DNA of 31,957 nt. Origin: a virus. The notes beneath the pieces are model-generated. The model saw only the letters and a program-made list of their open reading frames with translations. It searched no databases and was not told where the DNA came from. A program made the translations under genes and the position numbers. Numbering within the stretch: position 1 is the stretch's first letter; each line of letters starts with the position of its first letter. Location of the stretch: IMG/VR virus record IMGVR_UViG_3300047510_001116, positions 1-31,957 of that record. One strand, given 5' to 3'. Positions 10,517-17,142 of the stretch are shown piece after piece.

Positions 10517-10599
10517 TGTCGGTAAGAGGACTTGAACCTCCACGTCATAAAGACACTGGAACCTAAACCCAGCGCGTCTACCAATTCCGCCATACCGAC
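10517..10599 (-). tRNA. tRNA-Leu (UAG)
   Basis: Acceptor stem GTCGGTA / TACCGAC is perfect, discriminator A. The anticodon stem CTGGG / TCCAG holds loop TTTAGGT, anticodon UAG (reads CUA). The D-arm and T-arm (GGTTCAAGTCC) are canonical and a long class II variable arm is present, as required for Leu. No encoded CCA. Last tRNA of the cluster in the direction of transcription. Confidence 0.95.
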
Positions 10600-10603
10600 G
10601 AGT

Positions 10604-10620
10604 GGGGGTTGTCAACCCCC
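10604..10620. repeat. Perfect palindromic hairpin beside tRNA-Leu
   Basis: A 7-bp stem GGGGGTT / AACCCCC with a 3-base loop, five bases before the tRNA-Leu 5' end. Its centre contains TTGACA on the minus strand, but no -10 follows at the right distance. It may be a processing signal or a relic promoter/terminator. Confidence 0.5.
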
Positions 10621-10636
10621 TGTGCTAGGCTCGCCA

Positions 10637-10673
10637 CCTATTTTGTATTCAGTTGGAAAAATAGGAAACCAAC
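10637..10673 (-). ncRNA. Candidate H-type RNA pseudoknot in the Thr-Leu gap
   Basis: Minus-strand RNA order: GTTGG (10673-10669), 3-base loop, CCTATTTT (10665-10658), 1 base, CCAAC (10656-10652), 7-base loop, AAAATAGG (10644-10637). The two stems (5 and 8 bp, all Watson-Crick) interleave with loop lengths that fit an H-type pseudoknot. The whole gap 10600-10883 has no supported gene. It also holds a hairpin TGAAGG / CCTTCA and the CGGTAC hairpin after tRNA-Thr. Whether this is a separate RNA or a spacer of the tRNA precursor is unknown. Confidence 0.4.
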
Positions 10674-10865
10674 CACACGGAAGGGGTTTTGTGGTTATCC
10701 ACCACCAAGTTTTTAACTAGAACCTGGAAACTAGGCGGGAGTTATCCCATCCGCACCAGGGTAAGATTTAAGTCATTCCAAGACTCGGGATTGAAGGGGA
10801 ACCTTCACCGACCAGGGTTTTTTACGTGTCTCCATCACGGGCATTAAGGGGATTGACTCCACCAT

Positions 10866-10882
10866 CGGTACATAAAGTACCG
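10866..10882. repeat. Hairpin just 3' of tRNA-Thr
   Basis: Perfect 6-bp stem CGGTAC / GTACCG with a 5-base loop, beginning two bases after the tRNA-Thr 3' end in the transcript direction. No T-tract, so more likely a processing or stability element than a terminator. Confidence 0.5.
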
Positions 10883-10883
10883 A

Positions 10884-10955
10884 AGCCCTTGACTGGATTT
10901 GAACCAGCGACCAACGGTTTACAAAACCGTTGCTCTACCACTGAGCTACAAGGGC
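10884..10955 (-). tRNA. tRNA-Thr (UGU)
   Basis: Acceptor GCCCTTG / CAAGGGC perfect. The D-arm (GTAGCTCAGTGGTAGAGC), T-arm (GGTTCAAATCC) and anticodon stem ACGGT / ACCGT with loop TTTGTAA give UGU (reads ACA). Discriminator U, as in many Thr tRNAs. CCA not encoded. Confidence 0.95.
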
Positions 10956-10986
10956 GAAAGACCTGCATATTATACAGGATTTTGGA

Positions 10987-11667
10987 TCAGATGACAAGGG
11001 TTTTTTCATGACCGACCCTACAGGTGGGATCTAGCCAGATATCAAACCCAACATCTTTTGCATCATGACAGAATGCAACATCTTCAGAACAAACATCTTG
11101 AATGTCTTCTCCAATATTTAGTAACTTTGGAGCAAACCAAGGATACTGCATTTTTTCAAAAACACCTTGTTTAATTAGTACCCAACCAAAACCAATGTAG
11201 TCAACTTTGATTGGTTCTTTCTTAGTGGACATATCTTCTGTTGTCAGAAATTGATATGAACCATGTTGTTTGAAAAACTCATCATCCATTGTTTCTACTA
11301 CTGGAGTATAGAAACCACCAGAAGCAGCACCTCCAGGTTGTGAATACCAACCAGAAGCAATATCTGTATCCATATCAACTAGTTTCTGAAACATTTCATT
11401 ATTAAATGCAATGTCAGAATCAATCCACATCATATAATCATACTTTAGTCCATTGAAGGGAGTTTGATTCTTACCTCTGGATACATCAGCACCTGCACAT
11501 TTACAACGTGCATAGTTTACCATACTTGAATACTGTTGAGATACTTTGAATCTACCACCTTTAGATGAAACGTATGATAGTAGTTCAAGAAAACTAACTA
11601 GAAAATCCCCAGAGTAATATCTTCCAGGTAAACAAAAAACAATATCTTTATCTTGAAGTGAAGTCAT
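10987..11667 (-). CDS. Glycosyltransferase-like protein (GT-A fold)
   Basis: A 226-residue protein. After a Rossmann-like start (KDIVFCLPGRYYSGDFLVSF) it contains LKYDYMMWIDSDIAFNNEMF. The WIDSD element is the DxD-type motif that binds the metal and nucleotide sugar in GT-A glycosyltransferases. The C-terminal part (SEDVAFCHDAKDVGFDIWLD, then VGHEKTLVI) matches the closing acidic/His motifs of the same fold. Proteins of this kind are frequent in cyanomyoviruses. Possible substrates are phage DNA or proteins, or host surface sugars; the sequence does not decide. No signal peptide. It sits between tRNA-Met and tRNA-Thr. Confidence 0.82.
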   Translation of the reverse strand: MTSLQDKDIVFCLPGRYYSGDFLVSFLELLSYVSSKGGRFKVSQQYSSMVNYARCKCAGADVSRGKNQTPFNGLKYDYMMWIDSDIAFNNEMFQKLVDMDTDIASGWYSQPGGAASGGFYTPVVETMDDEFFKQHGSYQFLTTEDMSTKKEPIKVDYIGFGWVLIKQGVFEKMQYPWFAPKLLNIGEDIQDVCSEDVAFCHDAKDVGFDIWLDPTCRVGHEKTLVI

Positions 11668-11684
11668 AAAAAATAATTATAGTA

Positions 11685-11757
11685 TGCTGGTTGAGGGGAT
11701 TGAACCCACCTTAGCCGAATTATGAGTTCGGTGCATTCACCAGATTGCTAAACCAGC
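11685..11757 (-). tRNA. tRNA-Met, elongator type (CAU)
   Basis: Acceptor GCTGGTT / AACCAGC perfect, discriminator A. The anticodon stem CCGAA / TTCGG holds loop CTCATAA, anticodon CAU. The normal G-C first pair excludes an initiator tRNA. A CAU anticodon could also be the lysidine-modified Ile tRNA, but a separate tRNA-Ile(UAU) lies next in the cluster, which favours Met. Confidence 0.88.
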
Positions 11758-11768
11758 AACAAACAAAA

Positions 11769-12146
11769 CTATTTTATATTAAGAGCTCTGTATGTTGAAG
11801 TTAAAGAATGACAATTTGGACATAATACTCTAAGATTTTCCCTCTTTGAATTTGTTCGGTCTCCATCTATGTGATCTATTTCTAGAGGAACATTTCCTGT
11901 ATGTGGATTAATTTTAGACCACCCACATTGACTGCACTTATAGTTTGATTCATTTAATAAGTATCGTCTAATATATCCAGAAACATAATTTCCTCTAATT
12001 CTTCCTTCAATATTTCCATTAAGCCATTCATTAATGTAAACTCGTTGATCTTCATTTCTTTGACATTTGGTGGAACAATATTTTCCAGATTTTTGAGACG
12101 GTGAATATTTAAATTGGTTTGAACAAAAAATACAAGTACCAATCAT
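11769..12146 (-). CDS. HNH endonuclease, free-standing
   Basis: A 125-residue nuclease. The N-terminus carries a zinc finger (CIFCSNQFKYSP, then YCSTKCQR). The C-terminal half is a typical HNH domain: YKCSQCGWSK, then PLEIDHIDGDRTNSKRENLR (the catalytic His-Asp-His core), then VLCPNCHSLTSTY with the second zinc-binding pair. Such genes are usually mobile homing endonucleases that cut related phage genomes at a site near their insertion point. Here it lies between tRNA-Ile and tRNA-Met, a common refuge for homing genes in T4-like phages. It has its own late-promoter sequence 22 bases upstream. No intron is associated with it. Confidence 0.93.
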   Translation of the reverse strand: MIGTCIFCSNQFKYSPSQKSGKYCSTKCQRNEDQRVYINEWLNGNIEGRIRGNYVSGYIRRYLLNESNYKCSQCGWSKINPHTGNVPLEIDHIDGDRTNSKRENLRVLCPNCHSLTSTYRALNIK

Positions 12147-12167
12147 AATAGTAGTTAGTTCTATGGT

Positions 12168-12175
12168 TATTTATA
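12168..12175 (-). promoter_or_regulatory. T4-type late promoter of the HNH gene
   Basis: Exact TATAAATA on the minus strand between tRNA-Ile and the HNH gene, the usual distance from the start at 12146. Confidence 0.65.
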
Positions 12176-12191
12176 CATGTGAACTAACCAA

Positions 12192-12263
12192 TGGGGATAC
12201 TGGGGATTGAACCCAGACTAAGCCCTTATAAGGAGCCCGCTCTAACCATTAAGCTATACCCCC
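12192..12263 (-). tRNA. tRNA-Ile (UAU)
   Basis: Acceptor GGGGGTA / TATCCCC, discriminator A, D-stem GCTT / GAGC, T-arm CTGGG / CCCAG with TTCAATC. The anticodon stem GGCTC / GGGCT (with G-U pairs) holds loop CTTATAA, so positions 34-36 are UAU, which reads AUA. Most bacteria read AUA with a lysidine-modified CAU tRNA, so a UAU Ile tRNA is unusual. Confidence 0.85.
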
Positions 12264-12269
12264 AAGAAA

Positions 12270-12449
12270 TCAAGGAGCGTCATTATTGAGTTCGGTATGT
12301 ATTCGTATGAGATCCTTAACTTCTTCTGTATATGGAACAATCACTGCATCTCCATATTCACTGGTGATAGTAAACGATTCACCATTCTCTACTCTTTCCA
12401 TGAGATTATCAAAATCAGATTGAAATTCTTCTACAGTAAATTTTTCCAT
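12270..12449 (-). CDS. Phd/YefM antitoxin-like protein
   Basis: A 59-residue protein lying six bases before tRNA-Ile. MEKFTVEEFQSDFDNLMERV followed by ENGESFTITSEYGDAVIVPY resembles the N-terminal DNA-binding fold of Phd/YefM antitoxins (a helix ending in a Leu-rich face, then GESFxIT..GxAVIVP). The acidic helical tail EEVKDLIRIHTELNNDAP is short compared with true antitoxins (75-90 residues). No toxin gene (RelE, Doc or YoeB type) is adjacent: neighbours are tRNA-Pro and tRNA-Ile. It may be an orphan antitoxin that neutralises a host toxin, or a small autoregulator. The family link comes from motif memory and needs a profile search. Confidence 0.65.
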   Translation of the reverse strand: MEKFTVEEFQSDFDNLMERVENGESFTITSEYGDAVIVPYTEEVKDLIRIHTELNNDAP

Positions 12450-12467
12450 GATTGCAATGTTTATAAG

Positions 12468-12541
12468 TCGGAACGATAGGACTTGAACCTACGACTTCCA
12501 GCTCCCAAAGCAGGCGCTCTACCAAACTGAGCTACGTTCCG
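12468..12541 (-). tRNA. tRNA-Pro (UGG)
   Basis: Acceptor CGGAACG / CGTTCCG perfect, discriminator A. Anticodon loop TTTGGGA gives UGG (reads CCA). T-arm GTAGG / CCTAT with TTCAAGT. The anticodon stem CCTGC / GCTGG has one U-U mismatch. The mature 5' end lies 11 bases after the promoter -10 box. Confidence 0.92.
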
Positions 12542-12552
12542 TTAACTTGTAT

Positions 12553-12581
12553 AGTATATATGAGGGGTCTGGGTTTGTCAA
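12553..12581 (-). promoter_or_regulatory. Sigma70-type promoter for tRNA-Pro and following genes
   Basis: Minus strand: TTGACA (12581-12576), 17 bases, TATACT (12558-12553). The last ten bases (CATATATACT) are identical to those of the hli promoter. The -35 again lies in a hairpin loop. Confidence 0.85.
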
Positions 12582-12589
12582 CCCCTCAT
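12560..12589 (-). terminator. Hairpin overlapping a stop codon and the tRNA-Pro promoter
   Basis: Perfect 8-bp stem ATGAGGGG / CCCCTCAT (12589-12582 with 12567-12560), 14-base loop, no strong T-tract. It covers the stop codon of the zinc-ribbon gene and the promoter -35. Weak terminator or attenuator. Confidence 0.5.
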
Positions 12590-12837
12590 CTGATCTCAAA
12601 ATCCAGTCTCTTAACTTTACGCTGCTTGCGTTGTTCCTGAAACTGAAGATCCTGTTTCGTCAGAACTTGATCCCGACGCTGTGACCGTGCCCCACTGATA
12701 ATTTCTACTAGGGATAGATCCAGTCCGCTGATATTCCCACCACGGATGGACGTAAGGTTGCTGCACTGGCAACACCTGAGTTGGGATGGGTGCTCCTCTA
12801 ATTGCTTCCCGCAATTCCTGCATCTGATAACTAACAT
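12586..12837 (-). CDS. Com-like zinc-ribbon protein
   Basis: An 83-residue protein with two cysteine pairs: MLVIRCRNCGKQLEEHPSQ, then RCCQCSN, a zinc-ribbon resembling Mu Com-type translational regulators. It continues SGLDLSLVEII and ends in a basic helix KQDLQFQEQRKQRKVKRLDF. I recall small cyanophage and cyanobacterial proteins with the same order of motifs (zinc ribbon, DLS, RRLDFE tail). AAGGA lies upstream of the ATG. Most of it overlaps a 106-codon frame on the same strand, and its codons show unusually many G or C third bases, as expected if two proteins constrain the DNA. Likely a nucleic-acid-binding regulator. Confidence 0.75.
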   Translation of the reverse strand: MLVIRCRNCGKQLEEHPSQLRCCQCSNLTSIRGGNISGLDLSLVEIISGARSQRRDQVLTKQDLQFQEQRKQRKVKRLDFEIR

Positions 12838-12937
12838 CTCTAATCATTCCTTTTAATTCTTCAAGTTCTTCGTGAATATCTTGATGATGAAACCGCAGAG
12901 GTTTCTGAATCAGTTCATTGAATTTTTTCTTTTTCAT
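12617..12937 (-). CDS. Coiled-coil protein overlapping the zinc-ribbon gene in another frame
   Basis: A 106-residue frame starting MKKKKFNELIQKPLRFHHQD. Residues 20-48 (IHEELEELKGMIRDVSYQMQ) form a convincing coiled coil. From about residue 50 it becomes Pro- and Ser/Gly-rich low complexity. The first 33 codons lie upstream of the zinc-ribbon gene and have no other use. The rest shares 221 bases with it, shifted by one base. The N-terminal half looks real; the tail could be a by-product of the overlap. A long coding overlap of this size is unusual in phages of this type. Confidence 0.6.
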   Translation of the reverse strand: MKKKKFNELIQKPLRFHHQDIHEELEELKGMIRDVSYQMQELREAIRGAPIPTQVLPVQQPYVHPWWEYQRTGSIPSRNYQWGTVTASGSSSDETGSSVSGTTQAA

Positions 12938-12954
12938 AAAATAAAGAGACTGAA

Positions 12955-13026
12955 TGGGCGATACTGGATTTGAACCAGTGACTTACCACTTGTAAGGAGG
13001 CCACTCTACCACTGAGTTAATCGCCC
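12955..13026 (-). tRNA. tRNA-Val (UAC)
   Basis: Acceptor GGGCGAT / ATCGCCC perfect, discriminator A. Anticodon loop CTTACAA gives UAC (reads GUA). D-stem ACTC / GAGT and T-arm CTGGTTCAAATCCAG are canonical; the anticodon stem has one U-U mismatch. Confidence 0.93.
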
Positions 13027-13145
13027 TGGCGGCCCTTTTGTTTGGAGGAGGTTGAGCCGAACCCCACTATAAGAATAAAGTTTGGACCTTTATCCTATTT
13101 GTATGGAAGGAGAGCTCTTGGGCGAACCCGCAGGATCACTTCCAA
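13027..13145 (-). other. Gene-free gap with nested RNA structure
   Basis: No open frame. On the minus strand TGGAAG pairs with CTTCCA, ATCCT with AGGAT (interleaved), and a GGG-TTCG-CCC hairpin lies in the connecting segment. ATAAAG / CTTTAT follows. The stems are short, so this is weaker than the other two candidate pseudoknots. Confidence 0.25.
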
Positions 13146-13217
13146 CTCCAGAGGCAGGATTTGAACCTGCGACCAAGGAGTTAACAGCTCCCCGCTCTGC
13201 CACTGAGCTACTCTGGA
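13146..13217 (-). tRNA. tRNA-Asn (GUU)
   Basis: Acceptor TCCAGAG / CTCTGGA perfect, discriminator G. Anticodon stem GGGAG / CTCCT with loop CTGTTAA gives GUU (reads AAC and AAU). D-arm GTAGCTCAGTGGCAGAGC and T-arm GCAGGTTCAAATCCTGC are canonical. The 133 bases upstream to tRNA-Gly (13218-13350) hold no gene, only weak hairpins. Confidence 0.95.
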
Positions 13218-13350
13218 TTAATGGTAGGAGGGGAGAGCATCACCTTAAGCCTCCCTCTTTACTTCACTTGGACACAGAATACTAAGACCAAGGAGAGGTT
13301 TTGGTTCCTACATTTGGCGTCTACTTAGTTAATCGCTAAGGACTACCAAG

Positions 13351-13422
13351 AGCGGCTGACCCGATTTGAACGGGCGACATCCAACTTGGAAGGATGGCGT
13401 TCTACCACTGAACTACAACCGC
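13351..13422 (-). tRNA. tRNA-Gly (UCC)
   Basis: Acceptor GCGGTTG / CAGCCGC (one G-U), discriminator U. Anticodon loop CTTCCAA gives UCC (reads GGA). D-stem GTTC / GAAC, T-arm CCCGTTCAAATCGGG. It is preceded by a structured leader of about 150 bases from its own promoter. Confidence 0.95.
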
Positions 13423-13426
13423 AATT

Positions 13427-13572
13427 GAGAGAGATCCATACAATGAAACAGAGTCGCAATACAAGTCATAGGTCTGTTTCTCACCGACTTGCAGCTGGGG
13501 TTTTTCACTCTCTCTTTTTCAAGTAGGTTTACTGTTGTTTATCCTATAAAACCCACTACAAAATGGATAAAC
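13427..13572 (-). ncRNA. Structured leader RNA upstream of tRNA-Gly, with candidate pseudoknot
   Basis: The promoter at 13581-13609 predicts a start near 13574. The RNA would begin with stem GTTTATCC / GGATAAAC (13572-13565 with 13544-13537). Then an outer stem GAGAGAG / CTCTCTC (13514-13508 with 13433-13427) encloses two interleaved stems: CAAGTC / GACTTG (13491-13486 with 13467-13462) and GAAACAGA / TCTGTTTC (13480-13473 with 13452-13445). The loops (5, 5 and 9 bases) suit an H-type pseudoknot. No coding frame is present. T4 also encodes small stable RNAs of unknown role in its tRNA cluster. Confidence 0.5.
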
Positions 13573-13580
13573 AGAAGACA

Positions 13581-13609
13581 ATTATAAAGTAAAAACTTTA
13601 AATTGTCAA
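13581..13609 (-). promoter_or_regulatory. Consensus sigma70 promoter for the tRNA-Gly leader
   Basis: Minus strand: TTGACA (13609-13604), 17 bases, TATAAT (13586-13581): a perfect consensus. It begins two bases after the tRNA-Arg 3' end. Confidence 0.92.
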
Positions 13610-13610
13610 G

Positions 13611-13684
13611 CGTTTCAGGAGGGACTTGAACCCCCGACCAACTGCTTAGAAGGCAGATGCTCTATCCAACTGAGCTACTGAAAC
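13611..13684 (-). tRNA. tRNA-Arg (UCU)
   Basis: Acceptor GTTTCAG / CTGAAAC perfect, discriminator G. Anticodon loop CTTCTAA gives UCU (reads AGA). D-arm GTAGCTCAGTTGGATAGAGC and T-arm GGGGGTTCAAGTCCCTC are canonical. The mature 5' base lies eight bases after the promoter -10, so the leader is at most one to three bases. Confidence 0.95.
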
Positions 13685-13692
13685 ATGAAACA

Positions 13693-13721
13693 ATCATACC
13701 AGTCAAGGATCTGATTGTCAA
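13693..13721 (-). promoter_or_regulatory. Sigma70 promoter for tRNA-Arg, extended -10
   Basis: Minus strand: TTGACA (13721-13716), 17 bases, TGG plus TATGAT (13698-13693). It starts two bases beyond the 3' end of tRNA-Tyr. Confidence 0.88.
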
Positions 13722-13722
13722 G

Positions 13723-13804
13723 TGGGCAGGACTGGATTTGAACCAGTGAAGGCAGAGCCGTCTGATTTACAGTCAGATTCCTTTAACCACTCGGAAACCT
13801 ACCC
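13723..13804 (-). tRNA. tRNA-Tyr (GUA)
   Basis: Acceptor GGGTAGG / CCTGCCC, discriminator A. Anticodon stem TCTGA / TCAGA with loop CTGTAAA gives GUA (reads UAC and UAU). Class II variable arm and T-arm CTGGTTCAAATCCAG present. The promoter -10 ends four bases before the mature 5' end. Confidence 0.95.
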
Positions 13805-13806
13805 AT

Positions 13807-14253
13807 TCATTTTACCACATCCCCTGGCGGGCAGTCAAGGGCCCAAGGGGAACAAATTCTCATCTCTCCACCGAGAGACCTGCACTCATCAGTATAACAC
13901 ACATTAGTGTCAACTGGTTTTTCTGAGTACCTTGGAGGAGGAAGTCTAACAGTTCCGTCGTCTCCTGTCAAGCGTTGATATTCTCTGATTGCTCTATCAA
14001 CTTCTAATTCAATCCTTGACTCAATTTCCTTTTCTACATCTTTGGGTATTGGTATTTCCTGCGTTAACCCAAAATGTTGTATAATAGCATTATATAGTTT
14101 CCAAAGTTGTTTCTGATCTATTTGTAACCATCCAGATAATCCAGACACCAATAGTAAAACAATTGAGGAAATAATAAATCCTTTTACATACTTTGGATTT
14201 AACGTTGGTAATACTTTGAACTTACCTTCTTTAACTTCAAATAATTTAAACAT
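13807..14253 (-). CDS. 148-residue single-span membrane protein
   Basis: Begins MFKLFEVKEGKFKVLPTLNP. One hydrophobic helix follows at about residues 24-44 (VKGFIISSIVLLLVSGLSGW), then an acidic helix (IPIPKDVEKEIESRIELEVD), a Pro/Arg-rich stretch and a C-terminal part with four cysteines (VCYTDECRSLGGEMRICSPW, then DCPPGDVVK). The four Cys after a membrane helix suggest a disulfide-bonded domain outside the membrane. It overlaps the upstream 98-residue gene by eight bases. The tRNA-Tyr promoter lies inside its last codons. No family recognised; a lysis accessory (holin or spanin-like) is possible but unsupported. Confidence 0.7.
   Translation of the reverse strand: MFKLFEVKEGKFKVLPTLNPKYVKGFIISSIVLLLVSGLSGWLQIDQKQLWKLYNAIIQHFGLTQEIPIPKDVEKEIESRIELEVDRAIREYQRLTGDDGTVRLPPPRYSEKPVDTNVCYTDECRSLGGEMRICSPWALDCPPGDVVK
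13809..13838 (-). promoter_or_regulatory. Sigma70-like promoter for tRNA-Tyr, extended -10
   Basis: Minus strand: TTGACT (13838-13833), 18 bases, TGG plus TAAAAT (13814-13809). It lies in the 3' end of the preceding gene. Predicted initiation is at or within a few bases of the mature tRNA-Tyr 5' end. Confidence 0.65.
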
Positions 14254-14542
14254 CAGTCTGATCCCAAAATTGATCTAGAGCATTGTCTATAGCATCTTTA
14301 GGACTAGTCTTGTCTGAAGAATCTCTAAGTTTTTTTGTATCAAAGGTTAAAGTTGGAGTAATAGATCCGTTATCTTCAACTTTAATTTTTGCACCAAAAA
14401 TAGTTTTCTTTGGTTGAATGTTTAAAGTATTGTAAGATTCTAAAGATACTTCTAATTTGTCATTAGATGCTTTAAGATATCCTGCTTTTGCAATGACATC
14501 AACTATGTCTTTTTCATCATCAGGTAAATTATCTATTGACAT
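14246..14542 (-). CDS. 98-residue hypothetical protein
   Basis: Begins MSIDNLPDDEKDIVDVIAKA. An N-terminal helix is followed by a beta-like middle (KLEVSLESYNTLNIQPKKTI, then KIKVEDNGSITPTLTF) and a short C-terminal helix (SPKDAIDNALDQFWDQTDV). No motif, signal peptide or membrane span. A perfect late promoter lies 26 bases upstream, and a 7-bp hairpin fills almost the whole leader. It overlaps the next gene by eight bases, so both are probably late. Function unknown. Confidence 0.7.
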   Translation of the reverse strand: MSIDNLPDDEKDIVDVIAKAGYLKASNDKLEVSLESYNTLNIQPKKTIFGAKIKVEDNGSITPTLTFDTKKLRDSSDKTSPKDAIDNALDQFWDQTDV

Positions 14543-14543
14543 A

Positions 14544-14575
14544 GGGGAGATCTGCAGCTCTCCCCATTATTTATA
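14544..14575 (-). promoter_or_regulatory. Late promoter with hairpin leader
   Basis: Exact TATAAATA (14575-14568, minus). Two bases later begins GGGGAGA, which pairs with TCTCCCC (14565-14559 with 14550-14544), ending one base before the ATG at 14542. The predicted mRNA would start on the stem, and there is no free Shine-Dalgarno sequence outside it. Confidence 0.7.
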
Positions 14576-14581
14576 GTGTAA

Positions 14582-14944
14582 TTATACCCTTGAATAACAG
14601 ACGTTGGCGACGCCTTGACCTGGGTGTGCAATAGTGGAGAACGCACCATAAGACAGATCAAGATCTCGGCCACCAACATAAGGGCCCCGATCATTCACAC
14701 GCACAACTACAGACTTGCCATTTCGTTGATTAGTCACTCTAAGTCTTGTACCGAATGGCAGCCATTTATGTGCTACCGATTTACCATATGCGTTATACCG
14801 TTCACCATTGGCGGTGGTTTGTCCATGATAACCATCACCAACTCCATAATGTGAAGCGAGGGTACAACCACTCGCTGCCTTTGCTTGGAGGGGTGCCAGT
14901 CCTACAGTTGCAACGGCGAGAATTGAAAGTGTTTTAAGTAGCAT
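14582..14944 (-). CDS. RlpA-like secreted double-psi beta-barrel protein
   Basis: A 120-residue protein with a signal peptide (MLLKTLSILAVATVGLAPLQ, cleavage near AKA-A). The mature part is an RlpA-type double-psi beta barrel: ASHYGVGDGYHGQTTANGER, AHKWLPFGTRLRVTNQRNGK and VVVRVNDRGPYVGGRDLDLS, covering the family motifs TANGE, AAHxxLPxGT and NDRGP..GRxLDLS. Some RlpA proteins are lytic transglycosylases that cut peptidoglycan lacking stem peptides; others have lost activity. Here it would act in the host periplasm, probably aiding lysis alongside the GH24 lysozyme. The SPOR domain of bacterial RlpA is absent. No obvious promoter is seen directly upstream (14945-15043 holds only weak hairpins). 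Confidence 0.9.
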   Translation of the reverse strand: MLLKTLSILAVATVGLAPLQAKAASGCTLASHYGVGDGYHGQTTANGERYNAYGKSVAHKWLPFGTRLRVTNQRNGKSVVVRVNDRGPYVGGRDLDLSYGAFSTIAHPGQGVANVCYSRV

Positions 14945-15043
14945 TAATTTTAATAGAACTCTACATCCTAATAGAGAAACCGCACTTCCCTCCTCTCAGA
15001 GGGGAATCTCCTAGGCTCTAAATTTGGTCTCAAACTCTAATTA

Positions 15044-15068
15044 CAAAAATCCCCCCATTTCTGGAGGG
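15044..15068 (-). terminator. Intrinsic terminator after tRNA-Ala
   Basis: Minus strand: stem CCCTCC / GGGGGG (15068-15063 with 15056-15051, one U-G pair), 6-base loop, then ATTTTTG. It begins three bases after the tRNA-Ala 3' end and closes the Ser-Ala transcript. Confidence 0.7.
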
Positions 15069-15070
15069 AA

Positions 15071-15143
15071 TGGAGAATAGCGGACTTGAACCGCTGACAT
15101 CCTGCTTGCAAAGCAGGCGCTCTACCAACTGAGCTAATTCCCC
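15071..15143 (-). tRNA. tRNA-Ala (UGC)
   Basis: Acceptor GGGGAAT / ATTCTCC (one G-U), discriminator A. Anticodon stem CCTGC / GCAGG with loop TTTGCAA gives UGC (reads GCA). D-arm TAGCTCAGTTGGTAGAGC and T-arm AGCGGTTCAAGTCCGCT are canonical. Its first ten bases also encode the end of the preceding protein. Confidence 0.96.
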
Positions 15144-15295
15144 AAGAGGTATTCTACTGTGGTTGCAACATCATTCATTGCATCACGAAGATCTGGGCGT
15201 TGTCCAGATTCCTGTCTTACAACAGGCCGATGATCATCGGTGAGAGTCCATCTCCATTGTTTCATGTCTTCACAATACCAGAGATTGATTTTCAT
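15134..15295 (-). CDS. 53-residue hypothetical protein ending inside tRNA-Ala
   Basis: The frame begins MKINLWYCEDMKQWRWTLTD and continues with RQESGQRPDLRDAMNDVATT, ending EYLLGN. The stop codon TAG is the TAG at positions 8-10 of tRNA-Ala, so ten bases are shared. The Trp-rich N-terminus and polar helix look like a folded small protein. I recall similar short cyanophage proteins, from memory only. It is placed between tRNA-Ser and tRNA-Ala and so must be on the same precursor; RNase P cutting at the tRNA 5' end would remove its stop codon from the message. Confidence 0.7.
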   Translation of the reverse strand: MKINLWYCEDMKQWRWTLTDDHRPVVRQESGQRPDLRDAMNDVATTVEYLLGN

Positions 15296-15319
15296 AAAAG
15301 AATAGAAATGAACTCTAAA

Positions 15320-15405
15320 CGGAAGCGGTAGGATTTGAACCCACGAACGCTATTAACGTTGGTTGTTTTCAAGACAACTGCCTTAAACCACTCGGCCACG
15401 CTTCC
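15320..15405 (-). tRNA. tRNA-Ser (UGA)
   Basis: Acceptor GGAAGCG / CGCTTCC perfect, discriminator G. Anticodon stem GTTGT / ACAAC with loop CTTGAAA gives UGA (reads UCA). A long class II variable arm (AACGTTAATAGCGTT) is present, as required for Ser. First tRNA of the cluster, about 12 bases from its predicted start. Confidence 0.95.
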
Positions 15406-15423
15406 AATTTGATTTATTTAGTA

Positions 15424-15491: not shown

Positions 15492-15683
15492 ATGCCTAGA
15501 GAGTGGAACACTCCAGTTAGAGAGCCGTGGAATGCTCCTATTCACAACACATTAAAGGCAATAGACAATCACACTCATGAGTATTTCAAGAGTGGCGATA
15601 AGTGGCACCTAGAAAAGGCTGACCAACTCAGGAGATATTTAGACGAACTGAAAACTTGGATTCATAGACAAGAAGGAAGATGA
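15492..15683 (+). CDS. 63-residue hypothetical protein
   Basis: Begins MPREWNTPVREPWNAPIHNT, then a helical part NHTHEYFKSGDKWHLEKADQ and LRRYLDELKTWIHRQEGR. Rich in Trp, His and charged residues, soluble, without membrane span. It ends in an ATGA overlap with the following membrane protein. These two are an isolated plus-strand pair between the tRNA cluster and the lysozyme. No family can be named. Confidence 0.75.
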   Translation: MPREWNTPVREPWNAPIHNTLKAIDNHTHEYFKSGDKWHLEKADQLRRYLDELKTWIHRQEGR

Positions 15684-15979
15684 AATTAAAATACCCAACA
15701 CTTGATAATATCGTACCTGCATTAGTTGCATTTGTAGCAGCATCTATCGTTGGTATGACATTTACAAACTATGTGATATGCAACTTTAAAGTAATGACTA
15801 GTTTGCATTACTTATATCTTGTAAAAGCTTTTAATCAAAGTGGTGCAAAACCACCCAGTAAGTGCGATGATAATACTTCAGAGTCAATTCAAACTTTGAT
15901 GTCTCTTCTTGCAACCATCATCGCACTCAAAGCAGATCTTAGAAAGAAACCAGAAGATAAAGATTCAACTGATCCATAG
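15680..15979 (+). CDS. 99-residue membrane protein
   Basis: Start coupled to the previous gene by ATGA. Residues 10-32 form a membrane helix (IVPALVAFVAASIVGMTFTN). A second weakly hydrophobic helix lies at 65-82 (IQTLMSLLATIIALKADL), followed by a charged tail KKPEDKDSTDP. Two possible spans with a polar loop and a basic/acidic tail would fit a holin, and the gene faces the lysozyme with a 15-base convergent overlap. That role is a guess from topology and neighbourhood, not from homology. Confidence 0.7.
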   Translation: MKLKYPTLDNIVPALVAFVAASIVGMTFTNYVICNFKVMTSLHYLYLVKAFNQSGAKPPSKCDDNTSESIQTLMSLLATIIALKADLRKKPEDKDSTDP

Positions 15980-16447
15980 TTTACCTTCTGCTTTACGTCT
16001 TCTCAACAATCCGGCTTCAACTTTAGTACCAGGATTACGATACATCTCTAGAGTGATAGGAATTAATCCCCAGTTTTTGTCTCTAAGATGGCGCGTAATA
16101 GTATTGAAGTTATTACTACCGTAGAAGCCAGCACCGAGATTATAAGCAAAAGAGATAAGAGATCCACGTTGATTGTCATTCATCTCACTCCAATAAGGAA
16201 TCTTTTGTAGGGATGGAAGAAATCTTTGTTCAAGATCAAACAGAAGTAACTTATCAGCATACTCTTGTGTAATAGTTCTTCCCATCTTAAATAGTTGACC
16301 ATTAAAGTCTTTAGTAGATCCCCAACCAATAGTGATTGGCAGTCTACCAGTTAATGGATCGGGATAAGCATGTAAATGACATCCCTCAAATTCTTTAATT
16401 AAATCAACACCGCAGTGAGGGATTTTTGATTGTGATGTTGATTCTAC
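15965..16447 (-). CDS. GH24 (T4-type) lysozyme domain, no start codon; proposed -1 frameshift product
   Basis: The frame encodes about 160 residues of a complete T4-type lysozyme. The catalytic Glu is in LIKEFEGCHLHAYPDPLTGR, with Asp nine residues later (YPDP) and Thr in ITIGWGST, spaced like Glu11/Asp20/Thr26 of T4 lysozyme. QRGSLISFAYNLGAGF and EAGLLRRRKAEGKLW close the domain. No ATG, GTG or TTG occurs before MGRTITQ at 16285, and starting there would delete all three catalytic residues. The frame is in -1 register with the upstream C39-like gene and joins it exactly at A_AAA_AAG (16453-16447). I recall cyanophage endolysins in which these two domains form one chain. Alternatives: a lost A in the homopolymer (mutation or sequencing error), or initiation at AUC/AUU. 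Confidence 0.85.
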   Translation of the reverse strand, partial: VESTSQSKIPHCGVDLIKEFEGCHLHAYPDPLTGRLPITIGWGSTKDFNGQLFKMGRTITQEYADKLLLFDLEQRFLPSLQKIPYWSEMNDNQRGSLISFAYNLGAGFYGSNNFNTITRHLRDKNWGLIPITLEMYRNPGTKVEAGLLRRRKAEGKLWIS

Positions 16448-16453
16448 TTTTTT
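16381..16453 (-). promoter_or_regulatory. Candidate -1 ribosomal frameshift signal
   Basis: Minus strand: slippery heptamer A_AAA_AAG (16453-16447) in the zero frame, directly followed by TAG. After it come interleaved stems AATCAACA / TGTTGATT (16443-16436 with 16409-16402, 8 bp) and ATCCCTC / GAGGGAT (16423-16417 with 16387-16381, 7 bp), a possible stimulatory pseudoknot. The spacer is only three bases if the first stem forms fully. Confidence 0.6.
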
Positions 16454-17142
16454 ACGTCAAAGATTCTTCCCCAGCCATCTTTACCACCAGGAACCCATCT
16501 ACGTGAGAGTTCAGATCTCTTGTAGACGGCACCTTTACCGTTGGATACTGCACCAGTATAACCATCGTTGAGTGAACCATAGGGATCATTCACAACATAA
16601 TCACCAGCTGGTGTTTTACCAATCACAACTACCATGTGTCCGCCGGTTGGATTAGATAAAGGGCCGCGATGAAGAATGCCAATAACAACAGGTCTACCAG
16701 CGGCAAGCTCTCTATCAAGATCAGCAAAAGAAAGAGTATAGGAAAAACTGGATTTAATGCCATACGATGCTAAGACTTTGGTTTGTACTAGATGATCTGT
16801 GGTGTCACCAATTGCAAAGACTTTCTGCACATATGCATCATCACCTTTAGAGCCTTTGAGTGTTCCAGGTTTAAAATACTCAAGGCACATTGCACAAGCT
16901 GATGAATTACAAGTTCTATTTGCATCCCTGTAGTTATCAGTCTGTGGGAAGAAAGGAACTTGAAGAATATTTGACTTTGGTTGTTCTAGTCTTGTTCTAA
17001 AAATTCTTACCCAGTTAGCATCATCTTGCATGAGACTACTAACTGAGTTGAGAAGATCCTTTTCTAGCTGATCAACTGCAGCAACGTGCTTTGGATTCTT
17101 CTCGTCGTAGTATTTAAAAAAGTTGTGTAGATCAATTTGCAT
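16444..17142 (-). CDS. C39-like cysteine peptidase domain protein
   Basis: A 232-residue protein. Residues 1-60 are a helical N-terminal part. The peptidase domain follows: NILQVPFFPQTDNYRDANRT with the nucleophile Cys78 in RTCNSSACAMCLEYF, His169 in NPTGGHMVVVIGKTPAGDYV and Asp186 in VVNDPYGSLND. This is the Cys-His-Asp order of C39-like peptidases, a group that includes peptidoglycan- or peptide-cleaving enzymes. It ends GWGRIFDVKK-stop at the slippery A6 run where a -1 shift enters the GH24 lysozyme frame. It may be made both alone and as a two-enzyme endolysin. It overlaps the upstream nuclease-like gene by 11 bases. The substrate is not evident. Confidence 0.88.
   Translation of the reverse strand: MQIDLHNFFKYYDEKNPKHVAAVDQLEKDLLNSVSSLMQDDANWVRIFRTRLEQPKSNILQVPFFPQTDNYRDANRTCNSSACAMCLEYFKPGTLKGSKGDDAYVQKVFAIGDTTDHLVQTKVLASYGIKSSFSYTLSFADLDRELAAGRPVVIGILHRGPLSNPTGGHMVVVIGKTPAGDYVVNDPYGSLNDGYTGAVSNGKGAVYKRSELSRRWVPGGKDGWGRIFDVKK

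Follow-up and report, generated by a model that had tools for sequence, protein, structure and literature searches.

A putative programmed -1 frameshift linking a C39-like peptidase and a GH24 lysozyme in T4-like cyanophages

The stretch of DNA considered here (the window) is a fragment of a T4-like cyanophage, 31,957 bases long, in which genes for a peptidase and a lysozyme lie as a pair on the minus strand. On this strand, the pair is preceded by nrdA (21326-19011), nrdB (19039-17837) and a small PDDEXK-like ORF (17476-17132), in an order shared with Synechococcus phage S-PM2. On the plus strand, a 99-residue ORF with a hydrophobic N-terminal stretch (15680-15979) converges on and overlaps the end of the lysozyme frame. 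Diverged relatives of this ORF were found at many loci (94 matched), either facing the end of the lysozyme or lying a few hundred bases past it. The ORF is a holin candidate, a function that is only inferred. Twelve tRNA genes, none for lysine, occupy positions 10517-15406 of the minus strand.

The peptidase ORF (16444-17142, minus strand) encodes 232 residues, beginning with a helical domain (HNFFK...; 16993-17139) detected in a domain search with an E value of 6.9e-14 and also present in the lysozymes of cyanophages in which the two genes are separate. This is followed by a Peptidase_C39_2 domain (PF13529; 16579-16965; 51.4 bits against a cut-off of 24, E 2.2e-13), in which C78, H169 and D186 are invariant in the five sequences compared. 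The second frame contains a Phage_lysozyme domain (PF00959; 15986-16396; 76.1 bits against a cut-off of 22.3, E 4e-21), with relatives in the PDB. In T4 lysozyme, the catalytic residues are E11, D20 and T26. The corresponding Glu/Asp/Thr set of GH24 enzymes, as read from the sequence, is E24, D33 and T42 of the lysozyme ORF (P0002). As such, the statement of the earlier note that a catalytic set in T4 spacing is present was borne out for the set itself and for the exact Glu-Asp distance of nine residues but not for the Asp-Thr distance, which is nine residues rather than the six of T4. A structure model of the whole fusion was of only moderate quality (mean pLDDT 69, pTM 0.42). When this model was used in a Foldseek search, the match to GH24 lysozymes was clear (best E 5.8e-8) and that to a C39-like peptidase weak (3erv, E 4e-3); no sequence match to the peptidase was found in the PDB. 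That the pair constitutes an endolysin is inferred from the domains and the phage context, as are peptidoglycan hydrolysis and the activity of either enzyme.

The peptidase ORF ends with GTA AAA AAG TAG, such that the slippery heptamer A_AAA_AAG (16447-16453) is read in the zero frame and is directly followed by the stop codon (16444-16446). The lysozyme frame, whose open stretch runs from 16456 to 15965, is in -1 register relative to the peptidase frame; following a -1 shift, it would be read from GTA (16447-16445) to its stop (15965-16447 overall). No ATG, GTG or TTG precedes the catalytic core in this frame, the first ATG (16285) lying only after the catalytic region. The coordinates, heptamer frame, -1 register and lack of a start codon described in the earlier note were thus all reproduced on the sequence.

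Relatives were collected in five IMG/VR scans and from a phage collection, yielding several hundred loci, from which those distinct junctions with a -1-frame lysozyme core no more than 130 bases after the peptidase were retained (n=79). A slippery heptamer in the correct zero frame was present in 77 of these, being A_AAA_AAG in 73 and A_AAA_AAA, T_TTT_TTT or C_CCA_AAG in the other four, while both junctions lacking a heptamer offer an overlapping ATG or GTG start. The 77 were divided into a frameshift class without an overlapping ATGA or GTGA start (n=66; 63 A_AAA_AAG, two T_TTT_TTT and one C_CCA_AAG) and a start-codon class with such a start (n=11; ten A_AAA_AAG and one A_AAA_AAA). In the frameshift class, a stop codon immediately follows the heptamer in 59 of 66 junctions. 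The S-PM2 junction, on which two genome records agree, reads GCA AAA AAG TAA, and that of S-CAM7 reads GTT TTT TTT CCA CAG TAG; in both phages, the annotation places the start of the lysin internally, truncating it. T_TTT_TTT together with a hairpin in the -1 arrangement was seen in S-CAM7 and one IMG/VR relative. A third type of slippery heptamer, C_CCA_AAG, occurs in a distant relative (L243) that also presents a hairpin rich in GC and a long linker rich in Ala and Pro.

Conservation of the heptamer was considered on a FastTree phylogeny of peptidase plus lysozyme, with changes counted by parsimony over 73 sequences. The synonymous third positions of the heptamer underwent 0, 0 and 1 changes, as compared to a median of 15 changes at 153 other codons for conserved residues, only one of which showed one change or fewer. 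Across ORFs of the window and of positions 1-100000 of S-PM2, A_AAA_AAG in the slippery frame was only weakly and not significantly avoided (7 seen, 10.8 expected), such that the heptamer alone is not special. In the coding ORFs, heptamers consisting of A alone or T alone were strongly depleted in the slippery frame (A_AAA_AAA: 4 versus 18 expected; T_TTT_TTT: 0 versus 5.4 expected), rendering the T_TTT_TTT of S-CAM7 more striking. When a conserved Shine-Dalgarno stimulator was sought upstream of the heptamer, codon tables revealed nothing beyond what is dictated by the protein sequence DGWGRIF.

The 75 bases following the heptamer were next compared with synonymous-codon shuffles, scoring uninterrupted stems starting within 12 bases. 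Such a stem was significant (p<0.05) in 55 of the 66 frameshift-class junctions (median p 0.012), as opposed to one of the 11 junctions of the start-codon class. In the window, the 5' arm of stem 1 (16443-16434) is complementary to a 3' arm (16411-16402) that doubles as the GVDL codons of the lysozyme. Because one A/C mismatch breaks this stem, it alone exceeds the shuffles only modestly (p 0.04; p 0.34 for total folding energy); the significance of the hairpin hence derives from the relatives and not from the window alone. Relative to the protein, the stems fall mainly into three registers, namely the CAACAYCAC/GTGGTGTTG, GCCAACTAA/TTAGTTGGC and CTCTACTCC/GGAGTAGAG types. In-register pairing amounted to 94.6, 90.4 and 93.1% for the three types, respectively, compared with 10-51% when the arms were slid by 1-3 bases; 6, 4 and 6 pairs, respectively, had changed on both sides, and among 1000 permutations of whole arms between sequences, 0, 26 and 0, respectively, reached as high a level of pairing. 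The covariation counts do not represent independent events, given that the sequences are related, and the registers were picked by best fit. Still, the existence of three different registers at one place, together with the S-CAM7 pair, argues, at the level of sequence comparison, for selection acting on the structure. No match to a known RNA family was found in Rfam. The element that is shared is a plain hairpin, with its stimulatory effect being inferred.

Examination of relatives with other gene arrangements revealed in-frame peptidase-lysozyme fusions with identical domain order in ACG-2014f and several IMG/VR contigs, and PHROG 3617 spans both halves as a single family. These proteins are orthologous to those considered here and of the same order, yet are encoded in one reading frame, with no frameshift being needed. 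In one relative (L155/L159), seven A residues are accompanied by such an in-frame fusion. In phages resembling DSL-LC02, the two genes are separate and the lysozyme, found behind an SD-like GGAG, begins with its own copy of the N-terminal domain of the peptidase (MARIDLHNFFKFYDEKNPNHVKAVQWLE...). A search for this domain accordingly returned two clear copies in DSL-LC02 and one each in the window, S-PM2, S-CAM7, S-SRM01 and ACG-2014f. In another group of relatives, the lysozyme has an ATGA start and carries a different N-terminal stretch of some 45 residues. Most simply, it can be inferred that the N-terminal domain of the peptidase is required by the lysozyme, which obtains it via fusion or a shift.

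Several further arrangements were observed. Two in-frame fusions (L201 and L202, positions 1766-2971 in each) retain A_AAA_AAG and the hairpin, with the -1 frame meeting an immediate TGA; this could be a dnaX-like reversal, in which a shift restores the short form. The heptamer and -1 TGA of ACG-2014f, found without a comparable stem, may be due to chance. In eight relatives, including S-SRM01, the heptamer is kept together with an overlapping ATG start but no significant hairpin, and phages of this heptamer-plus-ATGA class may use both routes or may be leaving frameshifting. In S-CREM1 and one other locus (L046), the lysozyme precedes the peptidase, with a single ORF being annotated in S-CREM1. 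When the expression classes were placed on the tree, at least approximately ten changes were needed; since only a midpoint root was available, no ancestral state is claimed.

Taken together, the locus presents a zero-frame X_XXY_YYZ heptamer, an overlapping -1 ORF lacking a start and a covarying structure downstream, and so shows the sequence hallmarks of a -1 frameshifting site. The frame relations, conservation of the heptamer, covariation of the hairpin, absence of start codons and existence of both fused and separate orthologues were directly observed, and lend strong support to the main reading of the earlier note. It is, therefore, very probable that programmed -1 ribosomal frameshifting yields a short peptidase and a long peptidase-lysozyme from one expression unit, although shifting itself and its efficiency are inferred from sequence. 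According to this proposal, most ribosomes would halt at TAG, releasing the 232-residue protein comprising the N-terminal helical domain and the C39-like peptidase. At A_AAA_AAG, with the hairpin lying a few bases further on, some of the ribosomes would have both lysine tRNAs re-pair one base back (AAA AAA). The shifted ribosomes would then continue through GTA GAA TCA to generate a 392-residue protein in which the GH24 lysozyme is joined to the N-terminal domain and peptidase. With two products arising from one message in this manner, the shift would set the ratio of peptidase to two-enzyme endolysin. It would also be the route by which the lysozyme acquires the N-terminal domain, the role of which is likewise inferred.

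It could be argued that the arrangement reflects the loss of one A, by mutation or by sequencing or assembly error, from an originally fused gene, as the seven A residues of the L155/L159 fusion might suggest. Yet, exactly A_AAA_AAG is found in the same frame in 63 distinct frameshift-class junctions from many contigs, the two S-PM2 records agree, and the identity of the heptamer, the adjacent stop and the covarying hairpin would not persist after an error. The earlier note had cautioned that error must be excluded and had proposed a comparison with relatives; these were found to keep the six A residues, the stop and the stem, with those lacking the heptamer having their own start codon. The dozens of independent contigs and the S-PM2 records rule out error or a lost A as a general explanation, and as an account of the junction it is scarcely credible, although a local error in this one phage remains possible. 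Alternatively, RNA polymerase could slip on the run of A residues, putting the fusion in frame in the share of mRNAs that gain one A (or lose two). The run is indeed homopolymeric, and the eight T residues of S-CAM7 come nearer the known range for slippage. However, transcriptional slippage in bacteria has been described at stretches of roughly nine A or T residues (PMC5009743), as opposed to the six A residues found here, the C_CCA_AAG of L243 includes no long run, and both the kept hairpin and the final G of A_AAA_AAG fit ribosomal slippage; transcriptional slippage is thus very unlikely indeed.

Another possibility is that a separate lysozyme is made by re-initiation, or from a non-standard start, after the peptidase stop, i.e., through termination coupling. 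An overlapping ATG or GTG does exist in 11 heptamer-bearing relatives, such as S-SRM01, and some candidate start is available in the lysozyme frame of 21 of the 66 frameshift-class junctions (GTG or TTG in 19, ATG in two). Nonetheless, the remaining 45, including the window, offer no ATG, GTG or TTG after the heptamer, and an SD-like match accompanies only one of the GTG/TTG candidates in the stretch tested. Re-initiation would, moreover, leave the conservation of the heptamer and hairpin unexplained and would produce a free lysozyme without the N-terminal domain that separate lysozymes possess, and so is considered very unlikely. A variant of the frameshifting explanation, rather than an exclusive alternative to it, holds that the shift is stimulated by a pseudoknot and not by a plain hairpin. 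The two interleaved stems reported in the earlier note are both present in the window as complementary stretches, with stem 2 pairing 16423-16416 with 16388-16381, and a stem 2 of 8-9 bases appears in most of the 24 junctions sharing the hairpin register of the window. However, p was only about 0.12 for each versus synonymous shuffles, stem 2 lies on conserved residues (IP...FEG), and neither of the remaining hairpin types has it (median p 0.49 and 0.76). A pseudoknot is accordingly not supported, either as a general feature across relatives or as the shared stimulator, outside the hairpin type of the window. In the window and its near relatives, a pseudoknot is possible but unproven, and its being the stimulator is rather unlikely.

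Programmed -1 frameshifting, if confirmed, would link recoding to lysis, offering a conserved case of a two-enzyme endolysin in killers of globally important cyanobacteria, and would explain why the annotated lysins of S-PM2 and S-CAM7 miss the beginning of the catalytic domain. S-PM2 in Synechococcus WH7803 represents a ready test system. The arrangement further suggests that both wall enzymes depend on the N-terminal domain they share. A broader reading, put forward only tentatively and with less than even confidence, is that a constant proportion of peptidase to two-enzyme endolysin, with the N-terminal domain in common, is maintained in cyanomyoviruses and has been arrived at repeatedly by different decoding routes. 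These would be a -1 shift to the long form, with heptamers that differ and hairpins rebuilt independently; a dnaX-like reversal (L201 and L202); a shift plus an overlapping start; and a second copy of the N-terminal domain placed by duplication on a separate lysozyme. Were this so, frameshifting would serve to control the timing of lysis or the ratio of the products.

Among phages, tail chaperones provide the best-known examples of programmed frameshifting. No description of frameshifting in this endolysin or in cyanophage lysis genes was found in the literature searched, which was mostly open-access. The PRFect paper cites a 1994 study in the context of lysins that are listed as having a known frameshift (PMC10885494). 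In lambda G/GT-type tail chaperones, a conserved -1 shift close to where the upstream gene ends similarly gives rise to a short and an extended protein (PMC10885494; PMC3711429), but the cyanophage gene is related to lysis rather than tail morphogenesis and its extension is a complete second enzyme. Like the cyanophage locus, CTP1L, LysIME-EF1 and mycobacteriophage Ms6 LysA/Lys384 obtain a long and a short protein from one lysis gene (PMC4777826; PMC7098653; PMC3111421). Those systems, however, rely on an internal start and the products share a C-terminus, whereas the cyanophage products would share an N-terminus as a result of frameshifting. A close mechanistic parallel is Escherichia coli dnaX, where -1 frameshifting at A_AAA_AAG plus a hairpin is a known mechanism (PMC5009743). 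As in dnaX (PMC5009743), the cyanophage locus has this heptamer, a hairpin a few bases downstream and a nearby stop, and it would yield two products with a common N-terminus. The two differ in that in the cyanophage, the long form requires the shift and the zero frame encodes the short form, and in that no conserved upstream Shine-Dalgarno stimulator was identified; in L201 and L202, by contrast, the polarity is that of dnaX, with the zero frame encoding the long form and the -1 frame leading straight into TGA.
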